Source of the DNA: Aquila chrysaetos chrysaetos | Taxonomy: Eukaryota > Chordata > Aves > Accipitriformes > Accipitridae | DNA length: 64,000 bases | Reading direction: 5' to 3' | Assembly (NCBI RefSeq): GCF_900496995.4 | Contig: NW_024470326.1 | Location: forward strand, 682,001-746,000 | Position numbers and translations under genes: made by a program | In this document: positions 11,984-59,275 of the stretch, one piece after another | Layout of the letters: each line of letters opens with the position of its first letter | How positions within the stretch are numbered: position 1 is the stretch's first letter | Notes under the pieces: model-generated | What the model was told of the DNA's origin: nothing | The model's database searches: none | Seen by the model: the letters and a program-made list of their open reading frames with translations, nothing else

Positions 11984-12562
11984 TGTCCTAGTTTCAGCTG
12001 GGATAGAGTTAACTGTCTTCCTAGTAGCTGGTACGGTGCTATGTTTTGAGTTCAGTATGTGAAGAATGTTGATAACACTGATGTTTTCAGTTGCTGCTAG
12101 TAGTGTTTAGACTAATGTCAAGGATTTTTCAGCTTCTCATGCCCAGCCAGCGAGAAAGCTGGAGGGGCACAAGAAGTTGGCACAGGACACAGCCAGGGCA
12201 CCTGACCCAAACTGGCCAACAGGGTATTCCATACCATGTGACGTCCCATCTAGTATAGGAACTGGGAAGTGGGGGCAGGGAATCGCCGCTGGGGGACTTG
12301 CTGGGTGCCGGTTGGCGGGTGGTGAGCAATTACACTGTGCATCATTTGTACATTCCAATCCTTTCACTATTGCTGTTGTCATTTTATTAGTGTTATCATT
12401 ATCATTATTCGTTTCTTCTTTTCTGTTCTATTAAACTGTTCTTATCTCAACCCGTGGGTTTTGCTTCTTTTTCCCGATTTTCTCCCCCATCCCACTGGGT
12501 GGGGGGGGAGTGAGTGAGCGGCTGCGTGGTGCTTAGTTGCTGGCTGGGGTTAAACCACAACA
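11984..12562 (+). repeat. ERV-B 3' LTR
   Basis: It has the same length and ends as the 5' LTR, with ATTAAA at 12430-12435. It is followed by GGGTC, the right copy of the target duplication. ERV-A integrase coding resumes directly after it. Confidence 0.92.
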
Positions 12563-12878
12563 GGGTCCCTGTAGGAATGTCATCTGACAATGGCCCTCAT
12601 TTTATAGCAAAGATTGTAAGACAGTTGAGCAAGGTATTGTCTATAGATTGGGACTATCACACCCCATATAGACTGCAAGCAAGTGGGAAAGTAGAAAGAA
12701 TGAACTACACTCTCAAGCAACAGCTGAGTAAAATTTGTCAGGAAACCTCGCTTACATGGGTTAAAGCATTACCCATGGCTCTATTAAGAATCAGAGTACA
12801 GCCAAAAGGGAAAGGAAATTTAAGTCCTTATCAAATGTTATATGGGAGACCATATCAAGGGTCCTATGTTCCAAATAC
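12563..12878 (+). pseudogene. ERV-A pol, part 2: integrase core
   Basis: This segment continues the ERV-A integrase after the ERVL insertion in the matching frame. The second catalytic Asp is in SSDNGPHF and the Glu in SGKVERMN. It also holds the conserved SPYQMLYGRP block near 12830. It is interrupted at 12878 by ERV-C, and the C-terminal part of integrase follows at 18576. Confidence 0.88.
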
Positions 12879-13108
12879 TGTAGCAGTGCTACATATCAAG
12901 GTGCCGCGATTAGATCACTGGTCGGCCTGGACCAGGGAAGAGACAGATAACACACATGGTGTGAGTGCCAACTCCGTCCTTTATTGCGCAGTTAATTCCT
13001 TTTATACTAACAACGGTAGGTGGGATTACTGATATGTCATAGGGAGGCGACGACTAGCCTTCTACCTTTCCGTGACATCGCGAGATCTTCCGAACGGTGT
13101 TCCCTACA
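12879..13108 (-). repeat. ERV-C 3' LTR
   Basis: On the minus strand it runs TGTAG to CTACA with TATAAAAG and AATAAA. AATAC of ERV-A integrase plus one more A immediately to its left form the target duplication AAATAC. Confidence 0.92.
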
Positions 13109-13124: not shown

Positions 13125-14153
13125 TCCAGCTAGCTCCCATTGGTTACACACACTATTCATGCACTGTCCACGCGTCCAGTTGCACTCAATGATTGGCTGC
13201 ATCAACACTGCACATGCGCATAAACATAAAATATAATTGGTCATACTAACTAAACATACGAGACTTATCTCAGTCTAATTGGTCAAGATAAACTGCCGAA
13301 TTGAGGTTGTTTGTGCCAAGTTCTCTTTATCATGGAATATGCACCTGTGTTTTTCTAATTGGTATCTTTCTTATTTTTGTCGTCCTGTTTATTCTGTTCA
13401 AGGCGTTCTAAAGGCGTCTGGAATGCTCTTGTGACCGTTAGCTAAATATGTTCCCACAACAATTCCCCCTCCCTTTTTCTATTAGAAGAGCATTAGCAGA
13501 TCTCGTCACCACCATCCGCGAACTCAGCCCAGCAATCGGTAGGTGCCAGCTTTACGTGGGCGTCCCCACAGAGGCAACGATGGCCTTGCCGTACACCAGC
13601 CCGATGCTCTTCGGAAAATCCCGGTATTTATACATTTGCAGAGGAACAGATTTCAGCACATGTGGCCAGCGGGTGCTAAAATTCCCCTCAGTTGAAACAT
13701 GGGGAGCCTATGGCACATGCGGTTGCTGGCCAGACGTGCCGCACGAGTCATAGCCATCCTGTCTATTGGTTCACGGGCTTTGTGATGTGGTTGCAGTGCA
13801 CAGAGAATCTTGACCTGTTATGTCGGCTAAGGTGACCTACAAGATATATGAACACAATTAATTAAACACAGTAAAAGCAACATTATACCTAATAAAATAC
13901 ACAAGAATAAAAGAAACCCCGATTTTTAACAAAGATACAAACCAACTCCGAAGTCCCCATTCCGCAGCTAAATGCTCCAAGCCAAAATGACAGTTTTCTT
14001 AATTGCTATAAAGGTCTTGCAGCTCTTTATTGTCTCCGAAGCTCTGTTGTCTTATTCATTAAGTGGTGTAGTGTCAGAAATTCGCAGCAGATACCCAAGG
14101 CATCACAAGCCAGGAAAGGATAACAGCAATCTGTAAAGAAAAACACTCAAACA
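13125..14153 (-). other. ERV-C 3' internal region, no clear gene
   Basis: This lies between the integrase remnant and the 3' LTR, where env would be expected. All minus-strand frames are broken by stops and I recognise no env domain. A second purine run sits at 13461-13478 followed by TGTGGGAAC on the minus strand. It resembles another polypurine/LTR boundary but lacks a matching LTR end. Confidence 0.5.
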
Positions 14154-14811
14154 CTACAAGGTTAGGGCAGGACCAACCATACGACTAGGGACCCATTTCA
14201 GTAGCCCTTCAGGTATCTGTACACAGGCGTACCCCCGCCTGAGGCAACGCAGCTCAAACGGTCCGTCCCATTGGTGTGTCTGGGGATCACGCACACGGAC
14301 CAGTGGGTAGGGGCCTTTCTCTTCCGTAGTCGTAAAATGTCGTTGCACCGTCGTCTGGTCCAGGTCCCCCCGAATTGTCTGATTTAATGAAGTTAACGCA
14401 GTTAACAGGAGACGCTGTGTACGGAGAACAGGTGAATTATCCCGTAAGCAGGAGGGCTCCGCCTGGTCCCCCTCCCTAAGACGATCTAGCAGGGTCTTTA
14501 AGGTTCGATGTGCTCATTCTACAATGGCCTGGCCGGTGCTGTTATAAGGAATGCCATGTACAAGGGCTATACCCCAGATTGCACAAATCGTTTCACCTTT
14601 TCCGCAGTATAAGCTGTACCATTATCCGTCTTGATCTGTCGTGGAATCCCCAGTTGGGCTATGCAAGCACGCCAGTGTTGTACAACCGCCAAGCTATTCT
14701 GCTTCCTGTGCGCTGTAGTGAGAATATATTTACTATAGGTGTCTACGGTAACATGCAAATACTGTAGTGGCTTAAAGGGAGCGTACTCCGGTCCACTCAT
14801 GTTGACTGCGG
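14154..14811 (-). pseudogene. ERV-C integrase remnant
   Basis: At 14800-14567 the minus strand encodes an integrase core (LHVTVDTYSKYILTT with the first Asp, KTDNGTAYTAEKV with the second). At 14348-14154 it encodes the C-terminal DNA-binding domain (GPFELRCLRRGYACV, KWVPSRMVGPA). The two lie in different frames and the section with the catalytic Glu is degraded. The zinc domain, RNase H, RT and protease are missing upstream, where the captured poly(A) segment begins. The domain style is alpha/betaretroviral. Confidence 0.82.
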
Positions 14812-14889
14812 GCTACTTATGCTAACTCTAAATAATCAGGCTCAAAGAAATGTTCCCCCATTTTCTATGAAATCTCCCACAATTTGCCC

Positions 14890-14910
14890 TTTTTTTTTTT
14901 TTTTTTTTTT
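14890..14910 (-). repeat. Internal poly(A) tract (21 T on the plus strand)
   Basis: Read on the minus strand, 21 A follow 15 bases after an AATAAA (14931-14926). That is where a cleaved and polyadenylated transcript of the adjoining U3-R would end. Confidence 0.85.
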
Positions 14911-15248
14911 CCGTGCAAGATTCCCTTTATTTCACAAAAGAATCCAACTTATATATGTTTCAACAAAGATCCAGAAAGTACTAACGACTCACAGCCAATA
15001 CTACTAGCACAGGAGGGCATATCTGACCCAGCTGGGATGTTTGCCAGTCCTCAGAACAGTTAAAGATAAAAACATTCCATAGACATACTCGTGACTGTCT
15101 TCAGCCACATCTTCCCAGGCCTACACAAGGCCATCCTCCAACCTGACCTTGTAAAACTAGTTCTTCAAGGCTTGGCAAACATGCAGCACAACAAATTCTA
15201 ACGGTCACTCTTGAAAACAAATGCCAGGTGTTCCGAGCTGCTCCCACA
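14911..15248 (-). repeat. U3-R of a second LTR family ending at poly(A)
   Basis: On the minus strand it begins TGTGGGAGCAG right after a polypurine tract. It has a TATATAAG box near 14955 and AATAAA at 14931-14926, and stops 15 bases later at the poly(A). No U5 or CA terminus follows. It is not the same sequence as the ERV-C LTR. This is the structure of the 3' end of a retroviral mRNA rather than of an integrated LTR. Confidence 0.72.
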
Positions 15249-15262
15249 TCTCCCCCTTTTTT
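15249..15262 (-). promoter_or_regulatory. Polypurine tract of the captured element
   Basis: AAAAAAGGGGGAGA on the minus strand directly precedes the TGTGGG of the U3. Confidence 0.75.
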
Positions 15263-15707
15263 GTTTAGGAACATCAGATTCACGAGGAAGGCAGTGAGGA
15301 CTCTAGCTTCGAACTGACGCAATCCTCGTACTGCTCCTCAGGTGATTCTGATTGCTGCAAACACACAAATGATTAATAATTCTCCAATAGCAATATAAAT
15401 TCAGATACACAAATTTAAACCTCCAAATCATATTTTTGGATTTAAGCATTCAACAGTATTAGACAATTCTTTGAAAAACACCTTATTCTGCTAATTTCGT
15501 ATATTTCCCATTTGATCTTGTAATATCTGTGCAAGGTCTTAGGTCTCTCCTGCAATATTAGGAGCAAATGCACCTTGCAAATGTGCCTTCACCTAATTCC
15601 AATCACATACACTTTCATTCCCTTGTAAAGGAGTTACACAGAGCCCTTGTTTTTGAAATTCCCAATTGCAATGTAATTTCATTCTATTTTATAATGCATT
15701 TTGTCTA
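15263..15707 (-). other. Degraded retroviral sequence upstream of the captured U3
   Basis: Minus-strand frames at about 15680-15480 carry short stretches resembling a retroviral polyprotein or envelope (for example VKAHLQGAFAPNIAG), but with stops. I cannot assign the domain with confidence. Confidence 0.4.
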
Positions 15708-16216
15708 TGTGATGGGTTGATCCTGGCTGGACACCAGTTACCTACCATAGCTATCCTATCACTCTCTCCTCCACAGCTGGACAGGGGAACGGGAAATGAG
15801 GTTTTGCGGTTAGTTCATCACACATTATCTCTGTCACTTCATCCTCCTCAGTGGCAGCACTCATCGCACTCTTCCCCTGTTCCAGCGTGGGATCTCTCCC
15901 ACGGGAGACAGTCCTCCACGAAGATCTTCAGCATGGGTCCCCTCCCCAGCGTGCAGTCCTTCAGGAGCACACTGCTCCAGCGTGGACCTCCATAGACCGC
16001 AGGGGAACGACCCGTCTCACCATGGTCTTCACCACGGGCTGCAGGGGAATCTCTGCTCCGGCGCCTGGAGCATCTCCTCCCCCTCCTTCTGCACTGACCT
16101 TGGTGTCTGCAGGGTTATTTCTCTTAGATGTTCTCACTCTTCAGCTGCCATGTCTGTGTGTTCCGCAACCGCATCTCTCTTCCCCCTCTCCAGCTGTTTG
16201 TTTTCATTAATTTAAT
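15708..16216 (-). mobile_element. Truncated LTR related to the solo LTR at 19115-20257
   Basis: The plus strand starts TGTGATGGGTTGATCCTGG and follows the same order of blocks as 19115-20257, including the CAGCGTGGG and GGGCTGCAGGGGAATCTCTGCTCC segments. It then loses similarity near 16216 next to a TC/T-rich simple repeat (16230-16265). Only the part corresponding to the LTR 3' half is present. No target duplication is visible because one end is missing. Confidence 0.7.
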
Positions 16217-16324: not shown

Positions 16325-16890
16325 TTTTATGATACGTGGTACAATCATTACAACTGCTGATATTACAATTAAAATAACTAAGTTATGTATAAGCAAATCT
16401 TTCAACCATCCCATAATTCTCAAACTTGTTAGCCATCCACTTAAAGCTGTGTCAGTTATCGTGAGCCTTTTATTGTGAATCATATTAATATCAGGTGTTA
16501 GTAACGCAAGTCGTCCGAGGCTACATGGCCTCCCGTTAAGTTTCAATGGAATTCCTCTCCCACGCTCTATTTCCACAAATTAAAAATATCCCCGCAGGTA
16601 AAGCAGCTGGAATAGAAAAAAGAGTGTGATATTCTGGAATAGATATAGTTACACCAAGCTGTAGCATTTCTATATACAGGCAAAATAGCATTTACATTCT
16701 GACCCTTTCGAGTGGTGTTATGGGTGTAATTAAACATCACACAGGGATTCATGATGACTGATCCTAAGAACTCTAACTCTTGAGGTTCTTGCATTTCTTG
16801 AGGCAGGTGTGCATACGACAGGAAAAGTAAACATGGTATCTCCTTGCTGTAGAGCTTTTTCTCGACAGCGTTGCATCAAACTATGTGTAT
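16325..16890 (-). pseudogene. Env remnant inside ERV-C
   Basis: Minus-strand frames contain pieces of a class II-style envelope. An SU-like stretch at about 16790-16640 has Asn-X-Thr sites (NYTHNTTRKG). A block at about 16610-16540 reads LPAGIFLICGNRAW, and a C-terminal membrane anchor at about 16430-16330 reads LLIHNLVILIVISAVVMIV followed by a stop. The TM ectodomain that should lie between the second and third is absent, so there is an internal deletion as well as frame changes. It cannot make a functional envelope. Confidence 0.6.
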
Positions 16891-18324: not shown

Positions 18325-18342
18325 ATCACGTCGGGGTCACCA
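18325..18342 (-). promoter_or_regulatory. ERV-C primer-binding site, tRNA-Trp type
   Basis: Three bases inside the 5' LTR the minus strand reads TGGTGACCCCGACGTGAT, the tRNA-Trp primer site used by avian leukosis-type viruses. Confidence 0.9.
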
Positions 18343-18345
18343 CTA

Positions 18346-18575
18346 TGTAGCGGTGCTACATATCAAGGTGCCGCGATTAGATCACTGGTCGGCCTGGACC
18401 AGGGAAGAGACAGATAACACACATGGTGTGAGTGCCAACTCCGTCCTTTATTGCGCAGTTAATTCCTTTTATACTAACAACGGTAGGTGGGATTACTGAT
18501 ATGTCATAGGGAGGCGACAACTAGCCTTCTACCTTTCCGTGACATCGCGAGATCTTCCGAACGGTGTTCCCTACA
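18346..18575 (-). repeat. ERV-C 5' LTR
   Basis: This is a 230-bp LTR nearly identical to 12879-13108 (about two mismatches). AAATAC follows on the right as the second copy of the target duplication. Confidence 0.92.
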
Positions 18576-18918
18576 AAATACCTTGAGCGCTTTCGGAGAT
18601 ATGTCTTTAAAGGGTGTTATGATTTCTTTAGGAAACTCTTTACAAGAACTTCGTCAGTATGTCTCCACAGCTGGACCCTTAGAATTGGACACAGCAGTGC
18701 ATCCCTTCCAACCAGGAGACTGGGTATACGTAAAGTCGTGGACTGCAGAACCACTAGCTGAGAAGTGGAAAGGACCGTATCAAGTACTTTTAACAACATA
18801 TACAGCAGCAAAGGTTTGGGGAAAAGGACCTTGGCTTCACTATTCAAGAGTAAAGAAAGCACCAACAGGGAATTGGAAGTCTAAAGAAAACCGGTCCTTT
18901 GAAATTGAAAACCTATAA
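18576..18918 (+). pseudogene. ERV-A pol, part 3: integrase C-terminus
   Basis: The ERV-A integrase frame resumes here and runs to a stop at 18916-18918. The C-terminal domain is recognisable by FQPGDWVYVKSW, EKWKGPYQVLL and WLHYSRVKKAP, typical of gammaretroviral integrases. Within this stretch the frame is open. The whole gene is split into three pieces by two insertions. Confidence 0.88.
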
Positions 18919-57111: not shown

Positions 57112-59275
57112 CCCGGTACCTGGGGGTAGTACCGATACCCCTACTGGTACTCCGGGGTACAACTGCTGTCCCTGCTGGCGCCCGGCGGTAGACCTGCCCT
57201 CCCTACCTGACCCTCTGGGGTACGCATTCTATCCCTACCTGATGCTCCGGGGTAGAACCTGGCCACCATTCCCACAATGTCGGGGTAGACCTGGCCTCCC
57301 TACCGGCAAGCGCGTTGTTGACCTGGCCTCCCTACCCATGCGGGTGGGGTAGACCTGGTGTCCCCTATGTGATCCTCCGGCATACCACTGGTACCCTTAC
57401 TGGTACTCCAGGGTAGTACCGATACCCCCACTAGTACTCTGTGGAAGCACCAGTACCCCTCCCCCCCGGGTACTTGGGGGTAGTACCGATACCCCTACTG
57501 GTACTCCGGGGTACAACTGCTGTCCCTGCTGTCGCCTGGCGGTAGACCTGCCCTCCCTACCTGACCCTCTGTGGTAGGCCTCGTATCCCTACCTGATGGT
57601 CCGGGGTAGACATGGCCACCCTACCGGCGCTGGCGAGGTAGACTTGGCCTCTCTACCGGCACAGGCATGGTAGACTGGGCCTCCCTGCTGGCGCCGCTGG
57701 GGTAGACCTGGCCTCCCTGTCCGCAAGCTTGGGGTAGACCTGGCCTCCCTACAAACAAGCACGGGGTTGACCTGGGCTTCCCAACCATGGGGGTGGGGTA
57801 GACCTGGCGTCCCGATCTCATCCTCCTGGGTAGTGCCAGTACCCCTACTGGTACTCCAGGGTAGTAGCGGTACCCCTGCTGGTACCCCAGGGTACACCTG
57901 CTGTCCCTACTGGCGCACTGGGTTAGACCTCACACCCGTACCGGCAAGCGCAGGGTTGACGTGGCCTCGCTAACCATGGGGGTGGGGTAGACCTGCCGTC
58001 CCAACCTCATCCTCCCAGGTAGCACCGTTACCCCCACTGGAACTCCAGGGTAGGTACCAGTACCCCTACTGGTAACCCGGGGTACACGTGCTGTCCCTAC
58101 TGGCGCTGTGGTCTAGACCTGGCCACCCTACCTGAAGCTCCGGAGTAGTACCAGTACCCCTACTGGTATTCAGGGGTACACCTGGCGTCACAATGGGAGC
58201 GCGGGGGTAGACCCACCCTCCCTACCTGACCCTCTGGCTTCGGCCTGCTACCCCTACCTGATGCTCCAGGTAGGCCTGGTGTCCCTACCCGCATGGACAG
58301 GGTAGACCAGGCCTCCCTACCTGACCATCAGAGGTAGGCCTGGCGTCCCTTCCAGACGCTCTGGGGTAGTACCAGTGCCCTTACTGGTGCTTCAGGGTAC
58401 TAGCGGTACCCCTACTGGTACCCCAGGGTACACCTGCTGTCCCTACTGGTGCTCCGGGCTAGACCTGGCCTCCCTACCCATGCGGGTGGGGTAGACCTGG
58501 CGTCCCCTACGTGATCCTCCGGCATACCACCGGTACCCTTACTGGTACTCCAAGGTAGTCCCGATACCCCCACTAGTACTCCGGCGTAGCACTGGTACCC
58601 CCCCTGGATACTCCAGGGTAGTACCGATACCCCTACTGAAATTCCAGGGTACAACTGCTGTCCCTGCTGTCGCCCGGCGGAAGACCCGCCCTCCCTACCT
58701 CACCCTCTGGCGTCAGCCTGGTACCCCTACCTGATGCTCCAAGTCGGTCTGGCGTCCCTACCCGCACAGACAGGGTAGAACATGCCTCCCAGCCTGACCA
58801 TCGGGGGTAGGCCTGGCGTCCCTTTCTTACGCTCCGGAGTAGTACCGGTACCCTTACTGGTACTCCAGGGTAGTAGCGGTACCCCTGCTCGTACCCCGGG
58901 GTACACATGCTGTCCCTACTGGCGCACTGGGTTAGACATGGGCCCCCTACCAGCAAGCGCAGGGTTGACCTGGCCTCCCTACCCATGCGGGTGGGGTAGA
59001 CCTGGCGTCCCGACCTCATCCTCCTGGGTAGCACCGGTACCCCTACTGGTACTCCAGGGTAGTAGCGGTACCCTTACTGGTAACCCGGGGTACACCTGCT
59101 GTCTCTACTGGCGCTCGGGGCTAGACCTGGCCTCCCTACCAGCATGGGTGTGGTAGACCTGGCATCCCTGCTGGCTCCGGTGGGGTAGACCTGGCCTCCC
59201 TGCCAGCAATGTCAGGGTAGACCTGGCCCTCCCTACCAGCGTGGGCGTGGTAGACCTGGCATCCCTTCCCTGTGC
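57112..59275. repeat. Minisatellite, about 31-bp units, 2.2 kb
   Basis: Units of about 30-31 bp in two main forms: one built on GGTAGACCTGGCCTCCCTACC, the other on GTACCGGTACCCCTACTGGTA. They are mixed in irregular order, and a longer block beginning GGTACCTGGGGGTAG recurs (57111, about 57469, about 58615), suggesting higher-order duplication. It abuts the ERV-E env TM on the right. Open frames through it are by-products. Confidence 0.92.

Follow-up and report, generated by a model that had tools for sequence, protein, structure and literature searches.

The window analysed here is a stretch of 64,000 nt from Aquila chrysaetos chrysaetos (NW_024470326.1, positions 682,001-746,000; window position 1 is its first letter), and it contains on the minus strand a provirus bounded by two LTRs of a type that we term LTR_C, with a target duplication on either side and a primer binding site that we take to be of the tRNA-Trp type (Table 1). 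The frames of this copy are broken, and an integrase fragment is the only part of pol recognised in it. Its upstream env-like region (env1) gave no envelope family from Pfam, and for a second env-like region, the 3' end of that of the donor (see below), Pfam returned no hit for the pieces tried. Within this provirus lies a segment that most probably derives from the RNA of a different retrovirus (ERV_A), with the end of an LTR (LTR_A) and a run of A, and this is joined to the tail of the env of yet another family (env_B of ERV_B). Elsewhere in the window, an integrase-like frame on the plus strand (12514-13032), scoring below curated cut-offs, belongs to another retroelement adjoining the provirus. 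Long inverted repeats (31162-36520/42334-47733 and 36825-39045/50217-52439; 82-100% complementary) are accompanied by direct copies, most of them at 92-98% and one lower, and look like an amplified palindrome, and a tandem array of several interleaved repeat units occupies 57112-59251.

Table 1. Features of the provirus and of the captured segment, in window coordinates
Feature	Position	Strand	Basis or remark
Target duplication GTATTT, 3' side	12873..12878	-	
3' LTR_C, 230 bp	12879..13108	-	window provirus spans 18575-12879
Truncated LTR_B U3, remnant of the ERV_B parent	13139..13461	-	3' end of the LTR_C family
Integrase fragment	14157..14812	-	rve and IN_DBD_C above cut-off; best PDB match RSV integrase
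Native env (env_B) tail remnant	14783..14889	-	comparison with fuller copies
A-run, 21 A	14910-14890	-	poly(A) tail of the captured RNA; 3' side fused with A-rich stretch of native env tail
U3-R of LTR_A, 338 of ~369 bp, without U5	14911..15248	-	compared with complete LTR_A, 368-369 bp
AATAAA poly(A) signal	14926..14931	-	sequence reading
TATA box TATATAA of the LTR_A U3	14949..14955	-	by eye
Polypurine tract AACAAAAAAGGGGGAGA of donor family ERV_A	15249..15265	-	near-identical tract precedes 4/4 ERV_A 3' LTRs read
Donor env-like region, 3' end	15266..15705	-	frames broken in donor proviruses too
Fragment of a third LTR (LTR_E), pre-existing in ERV_A	15706..16198	-	in 3/3 ERV_A proviruses read there
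Left junction of captured segment	16190..16205	-	AACGGCTGG in donor L139, AACAGCTGG in window
env1, broken	16325..16875	-	env-like by eye only; lies 5' of the captured segment
Primer binding site TGGTGACCCCGACGTGAT	18325..18342	-	after 5' LTR_C
5' LTR_C, 230 bp	18346..18575	-	2 differences to 3' LTR_C
Target duplication GTATTT, 5' side	18576..18581	-	

The first-pass annotation of this DNA had described positions 15262 to 14890, read on the minus strand, as a polypurine tract, a U3 (beginning TGTGGGAG at 15248), a TATA box, AATAAA, a spacer of 15 bases (14925-14911) and 21 A with no U5, and the sequence bears out both this description and its coordinates. The U3-R unit stops at its poly(A) site, U5 is absent and the A-run comes next, where complete copies of LTR_A continue from the captured part into AGAGTTTGAGCGCTTAATTGAGTCTCCGCA or its variants. 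Some of the 3' portion of the A-run may stem from the native env, whose coding tail is A-rich.

A search pattern for the end of LTR_A matched at 188 genomic places and at none in the control. Among the 100 matches listed of these 188, 57 go on with letters of the U5 type, 42 with an A-run and one with something else, counts that do not represent a copy-number ratio because the pattern prefers a non-A base after R and penalises the A-run copies. An LTR_A-like end at G000:C27:4095190-4095224 goes neither into U5 nor into an A-run. Nine LTR_A regions were read: the ninth, L123, is an A-run copy, and the other eight hold complete LTRs of 368-369 bp which end in CA and extend ~30 bases beyond the position at which the captured copies go over into their A-run, as the first-pass annotation had expected of complete copies elsewhere. 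Hence, the captured piece ends where cleavage and tailing of an RNA would be expected, and its identification as the end of a polyadenylated retroviral transcript is supported. A tRNA-Trp-type primer site follows all three of the LTR_A 5' LTRs read, and each of the four 3' LTRs read is preceded by the env end and polypurine tract seen in the window. The donor form, ERV_A, is thus found as a family separate from the mosaic. One solo LTR_A is flanked by the 6-bp duplication GTCCTC; among the LTR_A pairs the flanks of L125/L126 share CCTGT, and those of L118/L119 and of L120/L121 do not match. One of the complete LTRs (L124) carries the R variant CACGG, the same as the captured copies.

The genome contains 506 candidate copies of the 373-base piece, and the best 40 of these, which were scored, match at 99-100% from base 1 to base 367-373 of 373. 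Since, in addition, an exact pattern spanning AATAAA, R and six A (AATAAAGGGAATCTTGCAYGGAAAAAA) occurs at 94 genomic places (43 + 51) versus 0 for the reversed control, chance is excluded. At the junction, 38 of the 40 scored copies continue like the window, L003 runs into another LTR and L009 into a different sequence, and the pure A-run ranges in length from 11 to 32. In the window-type copies the A-run is joined to env sequence of the form ..AAAAGGG(C)AAATTG, and in fuller copies it is followed by GTGGGGAAACAG. Both ends were fetched for 10 further window-type copies, nine of which gave both LTRs (the 5' LTR of L008 lay outside reach); a perfect 6-bp duplication encloses eight of these nine, or nine of ten with the window, and L004 has none. 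The ten LTR_C pairs differ at 22 of 2300 positions (~1%), which suggests that the spread of the LTR_C family was recent. The mosaic thus occurs at many sites with the same LTR at both ends, different flanks and target duplications; the 94 exact tail copies, together with the duplications, establish that the hybrid spread by retroviral integration, and the window copy therefore inherited its capture. The captured end does lie inside a provirus, as had been proposed, but it is not private to the window provirus: the arrangement characterises a multicopy family of proviruses. Of the 94 exact tail copies, 59 are located on contigs C27-C31, C33 and C36, which comprise ~31 Mb or 2.5% of the genome and are perhaps a sex-limited chromosome gathering ERVs.

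The sequence beyond the A-run identifies the acceptor. In L009 and L052 it reads GTGGGGAAACAGTG, and a long frame, env_B, starts 62 bases on; this frame matches GP41 and TLV_coat below curated cut-offs, and is followed by a 3' UTR, a polypurine tract and the U3 of LTR_B. The window bases after the A-run, GGGCAAATTGTGGGAGATTTC, are the tail of env_B. Of the earlier view that the piece is embedded between env-like sequence and integrase, the integrase part stands, with the correction that ~100 bases of another env's tail come first. Copies reading A14GAAAAAGAAAAGGG suggest that the A-run became joined to the A-rich stretch of env_B by deletion. The integrase fragment lies in the LTR_C family between the env tail and the 3' UTR and is absent from L049 and L052; on this comparison of copies it is a further acquired piece.

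The A-run joined to GTGGGGAAACAG, that is, on the GTGGGG side, was found at 48 places at <=2 mismatches. The env_B leader, used as a query, found 63 candidates; 40 were scored and 20 of those 40 read upstream: 15 carry the U3 of LTR_A and the A-run, four carry env1 and the A-run, and one carries neither. The uncaptured form of ERV_B rests on one copy, L109 (C30:679840-688579), a provirus with a gag match, pol and env between two LTR_B of 441 bp with 4 differences, enclosed by the 6-bp duplication GTGACA. Here GATTAGTGATT precedes GTGGGG without an A-run, and the env_B leader has the end of pol upstream of it (RNase H, integrase zinc and integrase DBD domains above cut-off, integrase core below). 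This pol end finds no match in the window or in the eight captured-copy loci compared, some of which are short pieces. The native pol end being absent, the captured segment replaced acceptor sequence and did not interrupt it. The env of L109 has 6-15 differences in ~720 from the captured envs, no more than these show among themselves; as sequences, these distances give no order and do not show L109 to be ancestral, and it could be a later recombinant rather than the uncaptured parent. The env_B frame is open across the first 220 codons in 8/12 copies, and its 28 replacement and 7 silent changes (neutral expectation 2.63) give no sign of purifying selection.

On its 5' side the captured segment is longer than had been annotated: positions 15262-14890 belong to it, and the whole extends from ~16198 to 14890, taking in the donor env end and the LTR_E fragment, which is longer inside the ERV_A proviruses L138-L140 than in the window. 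The left junction rests on L139, the sole donor copy reaching it, whose match starts at window position 16198 and which differs upstream. At this point L139 reads ..GCCGTTAACGGCTGG, and among eight captured copies compared that have the junction intact four read ..ACAAACGGCTGG and four, like the window, ..ACAAACAGCTGG. An A-rich tract after env1 lies upstream of the junction. By these alignments, ~1.3 kb of the 3' end of an ERV_A RNA is captured, with the left boundary in the A-rich tract after env1. Read-through from a provirus upstream of ERV_A, with LTR_E as its 3' LTR, was considered and rejected, as all three ERV_A proviruses read there carry the LTR_E fragment.

Over the LTR_A U3 we compared 31 captured copies: 14 window-type (including L003), L009 and 16 ERV_B-type, 15 of the last being compared over only about the last 150 bases. 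A T is common to 31/31, versus C in all eight complete LTR_A, and two further bases of the captured copies are in the minority in LTR_A (1/8 and 2/8); these shared bases are fitting for one capture event. The form CTTGCACGG followed by the A-run is present in the window family and at no fewer than two of the 48 ERV_B-type places (C28:3295349 and C30:586178). Among the 15 ERV_B-type copies bearing the LTR_A U3, 13 have CTTGC directly before the A-run and single ones have CTTG or CTTGG, and we infer that the shorter junctions arose by deletion from the CTTGCACGG form. In 4/20 of the copies read from the env_B leader it is env1 (CTTGGCTTGC) that abuts the A-run; two of these, read further up, carry the same env1 and are most simply explained as deletions between two CTTGC(A) words. 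L003, in one search the sole whole-query match among 40 scored places, was entertained as an independent capture beside LTR_B and rejected in favour of a further deletion between TTGTGG repeats. L003 and L052 are consecutive capture-bearing proviral stretches with seemingly one LTR_B in common, and there an A-run lies almost directly before the shared LTR_B via the TTGTGG deletion. Capture by a third LTR family at L009 was likewise discarded, as the A-run in that copy is followed by the env_B leader and not by an LTR.

The junction variants bear on an alternative in which the A-run is not a poly(A) tail but an older A-tract from the part of env1 coding for the cytoplasmic tail, to which LTR_A was joined at the shared CTTGCA. 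The env1-bearing copies and the prevalent CTTGC junction among the ERV_B-type copies would agree with such an origin, and homopolymers do grow in these elements without a poly(A) tail, the env1 of L117 having ~19 T in a run where the window has five. However, CTTGCAYGG is kept before the A-run in 94 copies, and at least two of the 48 ERV_B-type junctions, those on C28 and C30, also retain letters beyond the shared CTTGCA. Moreover, the distance between AATAAA and the first A of the run suits a poly(A) tail, and the env1 side of the copies with the LTR_A U3 shown reads CTTGCATAAAAATAATT and not CTTGC followed by an A-run. We regard this origin as quite unlikely.

In a second alternative, a polyadenylated ERV_A RNA would have entered an ERV_B provirus by retroposition, LINE-type or other, with pol lost later. 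Like retrocopies, the segment is 5' truncated and ends in an A-run, and A-rich sequence is present on both sides of it. Flanking duplications, which had been suggested as a check, were not found: the sequence upstream of the segment in L052 has no exact 7-14 bp repeat of the bases after the A-run, the 6-bp matches being scattered, and a comparison for exact matches at offsets 0-6 in L050 and L052 shows no LINE-type duplication, an 8-bp match in L050 being far from the left junction. Among the 40 best-scored copies none stands alone at an unrelated site, and 0/40 run into unrelated sequence. The absent native pol end would call for an extra deletion. As the first-pass annotation pointed out, CR1 of birds is not known to use poly(A). 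All this makes retroposition very improbable. That the LTR of some family holds the A-run as its own part in all copies, which the U3-R and A-run in 94 copies might suggest, has a negligible chance of being true, because complete LTR_A copies run into U5 and CA instead and because the captured copies examined at both ends sit inside proviruses bounded by other LTRs.

We consider it highly probable that the polyadenylated RNA end of ERV_A was captured into ERV_B by template switching and that the hybrid then spread. The first-pass annotation had found copy-choice the more attractive explanation, and we likewise favour it over LINE-type retroposition, because no flanking duplication was found at the two loci compared and the native pol end is absent; the capture is to be placed in an ERV_B ancestor and not in the window provirus. 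We infer co-packaging, two jumps in a given order and the use of helper proteins, in the following course: 1) A polyadenylated ERV_A RNA would have been packaged together with an ERV_B RNA. 2) Minus-strand synthesis would have copied ERV_B from its 3' end through env to a point 62 bases upstream of the env start. 3) Reverse transcriptase would then have jumped onto the poly(A) tail of ERV_A, and 4) copied ~1.3 kb, comprising the tail, R, U3, polypurine tract, env end and LTR_E fragment. 5) A second jump, at short homology, would have led onto a template bearing env1. 6) The hybrid, which is without pol in the copies read, would have been carried by helper proteins and have spread. 7) A second family with LTR_C would have taken over most of the block, and in its copies most of the native env would have disappeared when the sequence between the A-run and the A-rich env stretch was deleted; the window would hold one such copy.

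In the ERV_B-type copies the LTR_A U3 with its TATA box adjoins the start of env_B from upstream. Conceivably, though we hold this to be doubtful, this U3 is a putative internal promoter for env_B, and the A-run a hot spot for joins (with the env_B tail and with env1) that make new proviral families. If so, env would be transcribed unspliced from the R of LTR_A through the A-run. The captured poly(A) signal would be weak, as it probably lacks its downstream element along with the missing U5.

Copy-choice, with capture of a polyadenylated RNA, is accepted as the retroviral route to foreign genes and is known mostly from tumour viruses. In the erbB-transducing avian viruses (Raines et al. 1988) a cellular mRNA was reportedly transduced with its poly(A) retained; as in the present case, the captured RNA is joined on its 3' side within the poly(A) tail, and template switching in co-packaged RNAs is invoked. 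Unlike in those viruses, the RNA captured here is the 3' end of another ERV, and the event took place in the germ line and was amplified to many copies. Among titles and the beginnings of abstracts, with few subscription journals covered, we found no case of an ERV that keeps the poly(A) tail of a second ERV. ERV mosaics and the capture of mRNA have both been described before; a poly(A) tail taken over from another retrovirus and kept in two proviral families adds a new variation to them. A single genome contains the donor family, an acceptor without the capture, both junctions and the descendants, which allows the steps to be ordered and dated. The findings suggest that new joins go on forming at a poly(A) tail once it has been captured, and that a retrocopy need not be assumed wherever a provirus contains a poly(A) run.

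Retroviral cross- and co-packaging is treated, in the portion available to us, in PMC5086612. In the parts of PMC4299795 drawn on here, the crocodilian CrocERV29 is described as having captured a KIT-ligand mRNA between pol and env, and its Background section describes the chimeric RNA route of capture. As in the eagle, an mRNA was captured in an ERV and several copies inherit it; in CrocERV29, however, the captured RNA is a host coding sequence and no ERV domain was lost (PMC4299795), whereas here no host gene is involved and the copies read lack pol. A word search of the main text of that paper gave no word beginning with 'poly'. For Harlequin and other mosaic HERVs, co-packaging and polymerase jumps are given as the explanation in the available part of PMC4724089. 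These resemble the present mosaics in combining pieces of several ERVs, in containing internal foreign LTRs and in having reintegrated as mosaics, as far as that text goes. Unlike Harlequin as portrayed there, the internal LTR described here stops at its poly(A) site with an A-run behind it, an arrangement that shows the orientation of the jump.
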